The notes beneath the pieces are model-generated. The model made no database searches, was not told the origin of the DNA, and worked only from the letters and a program-made list of their open reading frames with translations. The position numbers and the translations under genes were made by a program. This document shows positions 43,321 to 44,944 of a stretch of 64,000 nucleotides of DNA, piece after piece. How positions within the stretch are numbered: position 1 is the stretch's first letter; every line of letters begins with the position of its first letter. Origin of the DNA: Moraxella catarrhalis (GTDB lineage Bacteria; Pseudomonadota; Gammaproteobacteria; Pseudomonadales; Moraxellaceae); assembly GCF_001656295.1 (NCBI RefSeq), contig NZ_LXHE01000002.1, positions 434,001 to 498,000 of the forward strand, read 5' to 3'.

Positions 43321-43515
43321 ATGTATGTATGTATTTGCCATGATGTAAAAGACACACAAATCAAGACTGCGTTATCATCAGGCGTATCAGGCATGAAAGG
43401 TCTTCAAGAGTCTTTATCTGTTGGTACTTGCTGTGGCTGCTGCGTACCGATGGTTCAGGACTTGATTGATGAGCATCAAGCCAATGTGATCGCCATTGAT
43501 GTGATGGCAGGTTAA
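43321..43515 (+). CDS. bfd: Bacterioferritin-associated ferredoxin
   Basis: A 64-aa [2Fe-2S] protein that docks on bacterioferritin and passes electrons through its haem to release stored iron. Cluster ligands: Cys4 and Cys6 in 'MYVCICHDV' and the pair in 'VGTCCGCCVPM' (the family uses C-x-C...C-x2-C). An excellent AAAGGAG ribosome binding site precedes the ATG. In E. coli it is induced under iron limitation; the bfr genes follow on the same strand after a 366-bp gap with a terminator, so it is a separate transcript. Confidence 0.94.
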   Translation: MYVCICHDVKDTQIKTALSSGVSGMKGLQESLSVGTCCGCCVPMVQDLIDEHQANVIAIDVMAG

Positions 43516-43881: not shown

Positions 43882-44376
43882 ATGAAATCATCTCAAAAAG
43901 TCATTGATTATCTTAACTTTTTATTAGGCGGTGAGCTTGGTGCTCGTGATCAGTACTTCATTCATGCACAAATGTATGCTGAGTGGAGTTTTGGTAAATT
44001 ATATGATCGTATTTATCACGAAATGCAAGATGAGACAGGACATGCACAGTTATTAATTCAGCGTATCTTGATGCTTGGCGGAAAGCCAAACATGCAAGTG
44101 AGCGAAATTCATATCGGCTCTGATGTGCCAAGTATGCTAAAAAGTGATCTTGAGCTGGAGTATCGTGTCCAAGAACATTTAAAAGAAGGCATCGCATTGT
44201 GTGAGACAGAGCGAGATTATGTGACACGAGATATTTTGGTGCGTCAGCTTGAAGATACTGAGCAAGATCACGCTCATTGGCTTGAAAAACAGTTGCGTTT
44301 GATTGATTTGATGGGTCTACAAAACTACCTACAAAGCGTGACTGCTGAAGTCAATCAGCAGGTCAATACTCATTAA
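43882..44376 (+). CDS. bfrA: Bacterioferritin subunit A, ferroxidase type without haem ligand
   Basis: A 164-aa ferritin-like four-helix subunit of the 24-mer iron store. All diiron ferroxidase ligands can be placed: Glu18, Glu51, His54, Glu93 (E. coli 94, one-residue deletion before it), Glu127 and His130. The haem-ligating Met52 of E. coli Bfr is Thr52 here ('QDETGHAQ'). So this subunit should oxidise Fe(II) but not bind the inter-subunit haem alone. ATG 43882 follows AAGGAG. bfrB starts 12 bp downstream, so the two are made together, as in the two-gene bacterioferritins of Neisseria and Pseudomonas. Confidence 0.93.
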   Translation: MKSSQKVIDYLNFLLGGELGARDQYFIHAQMYAEWSFGKLYDRIYHEMQDETGHAQLLIQRILMLGGKPNMQVSEIHIGSDVPSMLKSDLELEYRVQEHLKEGIALCETERDYVTRDILVRQLEDTEQDHAHWLEKQLRLIDLMGLQNYLQSVTAEVNQQVNTH

Positions 44377-44388
44377 TTGGGAGTGATT

Positions 44389-44865
44389 ATGAAAGGTAAT
44401 AAAGAAGTTATCCGTGCGTTAAATTTGGTATTGGGTCAGTCACTCATTGCGATCAATCAGTATTTTTTACATGCACGCATCACCAAAAATTGGGGTGTCT
44501 ATAAGCTTAATGAAGTATTTTATAAGCAATCCATTCAAGAAATGAAATGGTCTGATGAGCTTATCGAACGAATTTTACTGTTAGAAGGTTTACCAAACCT
44601 ACAAGATCTTGGCAAGCTTTTGATTGGCGAAGATGTTGCTGAGATTTTGGTATGTGATTTAAAGCTTGAAAAGCGTAAGCATGATATCTTGGTGGATGCG
44701 ATTGGTATTTGTGAAGATCATCGTGACTATGTATCACGAGAGATTTTGGTGAAGCTAAAAGATGAAAATGAAGAGTACGAAGATTGGCTTACCACACAAC
44801 AAGAACTGATCGAAGATATGGGCATTCAAAACTATATCCAATTAAACGCTCAAGATAATGATTAA
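44389..44865 (+). CDS. bfrB: Bacterioferritin subunit B, haem-binding type without ferroxidase centre
   Basis: A 158-aa partner of BfrA. Met52 is present ('IQEMKWSD'), so it can ligate haem at the subunit interface. The ferroxidase ligands are largely lost: Glu18 is Ser18, His54 is Trp54, Glu127 is Asn127, His130 is Tyr130; only Glu51 and Glu94 remain. It therefore complements BfrA exactly. 'LPNLQDLGKLLIGEDV' is the conserved B-C loop. GGGAG precedes ATG 44389. The gene symbols A and B follow gene order; naming varies between species. Confidence 0.93.
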   Translation: MKGNKEVIRALNLVLGQSLIAINQYFLHARITKNWGVYKLNEVFYKQSIQEMKWSDELIERILLLEGLPNLQDLGKLLIGEDVAEILVCDLKLEKRKHDILVDAIGICEDHRDYVSREILVKLKDENEEYEDWLTTQQELIEDMGIQNYIQLNAQDND

Positions 44866-44913: not shown

Positions 44914-44944
44914 AAAAACCGCCTAATCAGATGGGCGGTTTTTT
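44914..44944. terminator. Bidirectional terminator between bfrB and mipA
   Basis: AACCGCC and GGCGGTT arms with a 10-nt loop, with A-run and T-run on the two sides. Confidence 0.85.

Follow-up and report, generated by a model that had tools for sequence, protein, structure and literature searches.

Why would two neighbouring bacterioferritin genes each lack a functional site that the other one retains? This question is raised by bfrA (43882..44376, plus strand, 164 residues) and bfrB (44389..44865, plus strand, 158 residues) of Moraxella catarrhalis, whose coordinates include the stop codons and refer to the window, the whole stretch of 64,000 nucleotides analysed here. Both open reading frames were found at the place and on the strand given in the initial annotation. 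With 156.7 and 204.5 bits they exceed the TIGR00754 cut-off of 125.55 bits, which places both products in the bacterioferritin subfamily. The explanation that we regard as highly probable is that they form two subunits of one 24-subunit hetero-bacterioferritin, with BfrA dimers oxidising iron and BfrB dimers carrying haem and docking the ferredoxin Bfd. Our own analysis covers the residues, how the genes are arranged, their conservation among relatives, and the absence of another PF00210 gene; co-assembly, homodimers and the electron path are inferred from relatives. The literature behind the mechanism comprises seven papers (PMC6529640, PMC12120770, PMC8945002, PMC12261321, PMC13136788, PMC7760384, PMC3699543).

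The starting point is an alignment with a crystallised variant of E. coli Bfr, whose species provides the residue numbers used throughout. BfrA shows E18, H46, D50, E51, T52, H54, E94, E127 and H130; its six ferroxidase ligands are thus complete, and the haem position 52 is occupied by Thr in place of Met. Its E94 is residue 93 of the protein itself, the count being offset by a gap of one residue and, further on, an insertion of one residue. BfrB shows S18, K46, Q50, E51, M52, W54, E94, N127 and Y130, so four of the six ferroxidase ligands are lost (S18, W54, N127, Y130), and the inner-surface pair H46/D50 is absent as well (K46, Q50). Every residue that the initial annotation had named is correct. 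It had called the losses exactly complementary: the split is real, but the wording is slightly too strong because BfrB keeps E51 and E94. Neither protein combines Met52 with a full centre as a homo-bacterioferritin of the E. coli type does, and the Met52 typical of the subfamily is supplied by BfrB, BfrA having Thr. What is present instead is an adjacent pair of a full-centre BfrA without Met52 and a defective-centre BfrB with Met52, with bfd nearby. By residues and gene arrangement, the Moraxella locus is therefore a tandem hetero-bacterioferritin, an already known kind.

Could shifted ligands restore either site, as the initial annotation had allowed? For AlphaFold2, proteins from the window were aligned with retrieved ones (30 and 33 rows), and the resulting models reach a mean pLDDT of 94.5 for BfrA and 95.1 for BfrB. 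They show five helices, the four-helix ferritin fold plus a short fifth, and score Z 25-27 on Bfr chains. The BfrA model superposes on P. aeruginosa FtnA 3R2H with Z 26.0 (0.8 A, 153 residues) and the BfrB model on P. aeruginosa BfrB 4TOA with Z 27.1 (0.7 A, 156 residues). Counting structures less than 1 Z apart as tied, the top rows for BfrA are P. aeruginosa FtnA, a variant of it, A. baumannii Ftn and Shewanella 9IIG chain A, and those for BfrB are P. aeruginosa BfrB and Shewanella 9IIG chain M. The closest structures are solved hetero-cages of relatives (9BTS, 9IIG, 3R2H); structural alignment identity is 58% between BfrA and A. baumannii Ftn (9BTS_a) and 49% between BfrB and A. baumannii Bfr. 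Since the overlays run end to end, no register shift would bring new ligands to either site at the level of the chain (as distinct from atoms), and neither the alignment nor these predicted folds bears out a restored site.

The two genes share a strand and are separated by 12 nt (44377..44388), which is compatible with one transcript. Downstream of bfrB, a G+C-rich inverted repeat followed by T (44917..44944, plus strand) can be read from the sequence as terminator-like; the terminator scan listed none, the loop of 10 being longer than it permits. No Fur box was found within three mismatches of a consensus, and sigma-70-like matches were rarer than in shuffled sequence (7 against a mean of 10.4). 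A gene for bacterioferritin-associated ferredoxin, bfd (43321..43515, plus strand, 64 residues), lies 366 nt upstream of bfrA and is recognised by PF04324 Fer2_BFD with 44.1 bits (cut-off 26); the PRK10509 Bfd model gives 34.6 bits, below its cut-off of 75. The encoded protein starts with MY, matching M1 and Y2, which are described as docking residues in P. aeruginosa Bfd (PMC12261321). Near tandem hetero-bacterioferritin genes bfd is reported to occur often, though not always (PMC12120770). Within the genome (2.23 Mb, 26 contigs) exactly two PF00210 matches exist, namely bfrA and bfrB. A further ferritin that fills in a missing function is rejected, as the genome has no other such match. Another genome from this genus (G052), a single contig with a completeness rating of 100%, has no TIGR00754 match, and both genes may have been lost jointly.

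How general is the division between the two sequences? A contig scan with BfrB gave 59 loci, biased to BfrB relatives, the closest found being from Moraxella. It was joined by a family survey of 149 genomes (134 of them matched; the matches listed were used), a class survey of 87 genomes (47 matched, 33 above the cut-off), an order survey of 80 genomes around Brackiella (51 matched, 37 above the cut-off), seven genomes behind loci, and further regions. From 212 loci, 300 matches together with six reference rows yielded 243 unique cores; four fragments were discarded, namely one in L170, two in L171 and part of a split haem subunit in L057. These were typed by residue 23, which lies outside both sites, Asp defining an A-type; four PDB reference chains are included in the counts. 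All 79 A-types have the six ligands and His46, and 77 lack Met52. The other 164 sequences all have Met52; their ligands are complete in 73, one is lost in 17 and at least two in 74. Among the 243 cores none is without both functions, and the two uniform counts (79 of 79 with six ligands, 164 of 164 with Met52) take the split beyond chance.

Two sequences count against a haem-free A-type as a strict category. L149 (1966-2442, plus strand) and L201 (1019-1699, minus strand) have D23 and a full centre and fall in the A branch, yet carry Met52 and might, judging from their residues, bind haem; the A-type is thus not haem-free by sequence everywhere. A further group is formed by 16 unique haem subunits (L076, L079, L080, L081, L137, L188, L190-L194, L198-L200 and others) in which Glu127 is replaced by Thr followed by Glu128, the rest being kept. 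They account for 16 of the 17 one-loss sequences; the remaining one, L167, is encoded by a gene broken up across reading frames, and its ligand change may be an artefact. Of the 13 genomes in which a one-loss subunit stands alone, 12 belong to the E127T group. The E127T subunit would be a homo-Bfr variant whose centre may work differently.

Tandem pairs were compared as well. In all 63 distinct ones, many from sister species and hence not independent, the centre of A is complete, whereas B keeps Met52 and has lost two to six ligands; Met52 is absent from A in 61. The number of ligands lost in tandem B is two in nine pairs, three in eight, four in 35, five in nine and six in two; 41 pairs have A first and 22 the haem subunit. 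Pseudoalteromonas rubra (G239) harbours two hetero-Bfr pairs (L159/L164 and L154/L165), one in each order. Within the Moraxellaceae, among the matches listed, adjacent complementary pairs occur in Moraxella, Psychrobacter and genera g7 and g14, and dispersed ones in g10 and g15, the latter tentatively taken to be Acinetobacter. The dispersed pairs have lost other ligands (H/Q18, Q51, V/A94, Y130) than the adjacent Moraxella pair (S18, W54, N127, Y130). Twenty best-scoring copies from the family, 17 of them from genomes with a single match among those listed, comprise 16 with Met52 and complete ligands and four with E127T.

At the level of genomes, 32 in the class and 37 in the order have classified full-length copies (G229 and G287 are likely one genome). 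An A-type accompanies a degenerate haem subunit in ten and nine of them, respectively, an intact one in two and three (5 of 69) and a one-loss one in none and one. One-loss subunits stand alone in four and nine genomes, intact ones in 16 and 14, degenerate ones in none and one, and an A-type alone was found in neither set. Degenerate haem subunits are therefore paired with an A-type in 19 of 20 classified genomes. The exception, which counts against the hetero-cage and goes against a strict rule, is L209 in G317, a lone degenerate Met52 subunit in a genome with no A-type above the cut-off and two additional PF00210 matches. One class genome above the cut-off, G231 (1.4 Mb), has fragments only and was left out of this count; its locus L171 shows haem-type and A-type gene fragments side by side, both apparently truncated.

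These data also bear on the idea that BfrB is just a copy in decay that is losing its ferroxidase site. In its favour, the ligand columns of degenerate haem subunits are more variable than the average column (entropy ranks 0.62-0.84). Against it, Met52 and I49 are constant in 74 of 74 and L68, D56 and N23 in 73 of 74, and bfrB is intact in the Moraxella loci read. We give this idea almost no credence. Lys46 occurs in 61 of the 74 degenerate haem subunits, against His46 in all A-types. The A-types show the mirror image, invariant ligand columns and a variable residue 52. That ferroxidase and haem functions are split between subunits, as first proposed from the window, is supported.

If the two subunits share a cage, which dimers do they form? 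The initial annotation had suggested that a mixed dimer would hold haem by a single Met. BfrA and BfrB do have one common fold, and the crystallised E. coli M52H variant (8W8Z) indicates that the cage tolerates a changed ligand. The relatives point elsewhere: Shewanella cryo-EM is described as showing homodimers only (PMC12120770), the A. baumannii crystal as containing homodimers of Ftn and homodimers of haem Bfr (PMC13136788), and P. aeruginosa Bfr as having bis-Met haem spectra (PMC8945002). Moreover, Arg22-Asp23 salt bridges are reported for the FtnA dimer and Arg30-Asp56/Glu60 for haem dimers (PMC12120770). BfrA has R22, D23, Q30, Q56 and Q60 where BfrB has I22, N23, R30, D56 and E60, so that a mixed dimer would lose both sets. 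Across the survey, R22 accompanies D23 in 52 of 79 A-types, position 22 is I or V in all but two of the 164 others, and R30 and D56 occur in 149 and 161 of 164 haem-type sequences versus 29 and 23 of 79 A-types. As the cages of relatives hold haem-free ferroxidase homodimers and haem homodimers, mixed dimers with a one-Met haem appear very unlikely.

Which subunit would dock Bfd? The P. aeruginosa site is described as L68, P69, N70, Q72, L78, L79, G80 and E81 (PMC12261321). BfrB matches it with L68, P69, N70, Q72, L78, I79, G80 and E81; BfrA has K68, P69, N70, Q72, H78, I79, G80 and S81, and within the window proteins L68 and E81 belong to BfrB alone. In P. aeruginosa, Bfd is reported to bind BfrB dimers only, not FtnA, a Bfr with about 55% BfrB responds to Bfd at about 60% of the maximum reached with 100% BfrB, and Bfr composition varies with oxygen (PMC8945002). 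Together with the docking residues, these data lend support to the earlier suggestion that Bfd-driven release is tied to the subunit ratio, and it should scale with BfrB content. In M. catarrhalis at 26 C, bfrA and bfrB are reported to drop 5.5- and 6.2-fold (PMC3699543); since both drop jointly, the ratio need not shift much in that condition.

Characterised systems allow a closer comparison. The complementary split has already been published for Magnetospirillum and others (PMC6529640). As in Moraxella, Bfr1 and Bfr2 of M. gryphiswaldense are adjacent with the haem-free gene first, Bfr1 without Met52 and Bfr2 without ferroxidase residues, but the replacements in Bfr2 (E18Q, H54A, H131M) differ from those in BfrB; the two are described as forming one mixed 24-mer with a proposed 14:10 stoichiometry (PMC6529640). 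Chain A of 9H1U was taken to be Bfr2 because it carries the published E18Q and H54A. Shewanella oneidensis SoBfr12 (9IIG) likewise has adjacent genes, one for a haem-free ferroxidase subunit and one for a haem subunit, which share a 12:12 cage with homodimers only (PMC12120770), but has the haem-subunit gene first and a haem subunit with fewer lost ligands (D51, no E94). In A. baumannii, of the same family Moraxellaceae, Ftn and Bfr form a heteropolymer (9BTS) that is likewise divided into a haem-free ferroxidase subunit and a haem subunit without ferroxidase centres; these form homodimers each, and Bfd binds the haem subunit (PMC12120770, PMC12261321, PMC13136788). P. aeruginosa has a mixed cage in which FtnA dimers are haem-free and BfrB dimers carry haem (PMC8945002), as proposed here, but its genes are separate (PA4235, PA3531) and its BfrB retains the ferroxidase ligands, so that no complementary loss occurs there. 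Neisseria gonorrhoeae has a bicistronic BfrA/BfrB pair, and iron-containing oligomers are reported to be absent without BfrB (via PMC6529640). The Moraxella bacterioferritin literature, by titles and abstract starts among the matches listed, treats no subunit division of labour, and Moraxella is unnamed in the main text of PMC12120770 and PMC13136788.

Might BfrA and BfrB nevertheless assemble into 24-mers of their own, the former a ferritin and the latter a haem cage? Each type has a complete ferritin fold and distinct residues at the dimer interface, and P. aeruginosa FtnA and BfrB are reported to yield a 24-mer when each is made alone (PMC8945002). Against this, bfrA and bfrB adjoin, all four characterised relatives cited have mixed cages, S. 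oneidensis gives no iron-stained cage from either subunit alone (PMC12120770), and a BfrB-only cage would be without most ferroxidase ligands. Separate cages thus seem improbable, even though the M. gryphiswaldense two-hybrid A-B signal, reported in a single orientation (PMC6529640), counts against a shared one. In the hetero-cage that we prefer, BfrA-BfrA dimers would oxidise Fe(II) at intact di-iron centres and bind neither haem nor Bfd. BfrB-BfrB dimers would oxidise little iron and hold one haem each between two Met52; the neighbouring Bfd would dock on them and pass electrons to the mineral, releasing iron.

Where did the two subunit types come from? Trees were calculated without columns 18, 22, 23, 46, 50, 51, 52, 54, 94, 127 and 130; with about 145 columns they are unrooted, have many unresolved forks, and their groups were named with the sequences known. 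A-types form one side of a branch in a quick tree of 123 rows (SH-aLRT 99) and one branch in a careful tree of 81 rows (100/97, with a bootstrap that had not settled completely). The quick tree places P. aeruginosa FtnA, A. baumannii Ftn and further dispersed A-types in a supported set with BfrA (13 rows, SH-aLRT 96), and these sequence trees favour one old A lineage for tandem and dispersed A-types. Forcing tandem A and tandem B into a single clade gives a tree that is rejected (p-AU 0.0005, 149 log units), a result that counts against the origin by tandem duplication proposed in the literature. Gene order has to change three times across the 21 tandem A and another three times across the 27 tandem B, so each group contains either order. 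Many independent losses of the ferroxidase centre were suspected from the differing replacements, but a tree that unites 32 degenerate sequences (leaving out L055 and L209) is not rejected (p-AU 0.70, with a likelihood above that of the free quick tree), although the careful tree does not gather them on a single branch. A joint scenario, to which we assign an even chance, is that a single old haem-free ferroxidase lineage, including P. aeruginosa FtnA and the dispersed A-types, came into cages of haem subunits. The partner would at first have been intact, its ferroxidase site later being released and drifting differently in each lineage, and the two gene orders would reflect rearrangement rather than either duplicate turning haem-free.

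The locus itself is ordinary for its group, and its value is comparative. The survey yields a simple sequence rule for subunit type, Asp or Asn at 23 plus residue 52, and departs, in a way that can be tested, from the origin published for tandem pairs. For Moraxella, Psychrobacter and their relatives, iron loading and iron release would lie on separate genes of one cage, so that each could be changed alone.
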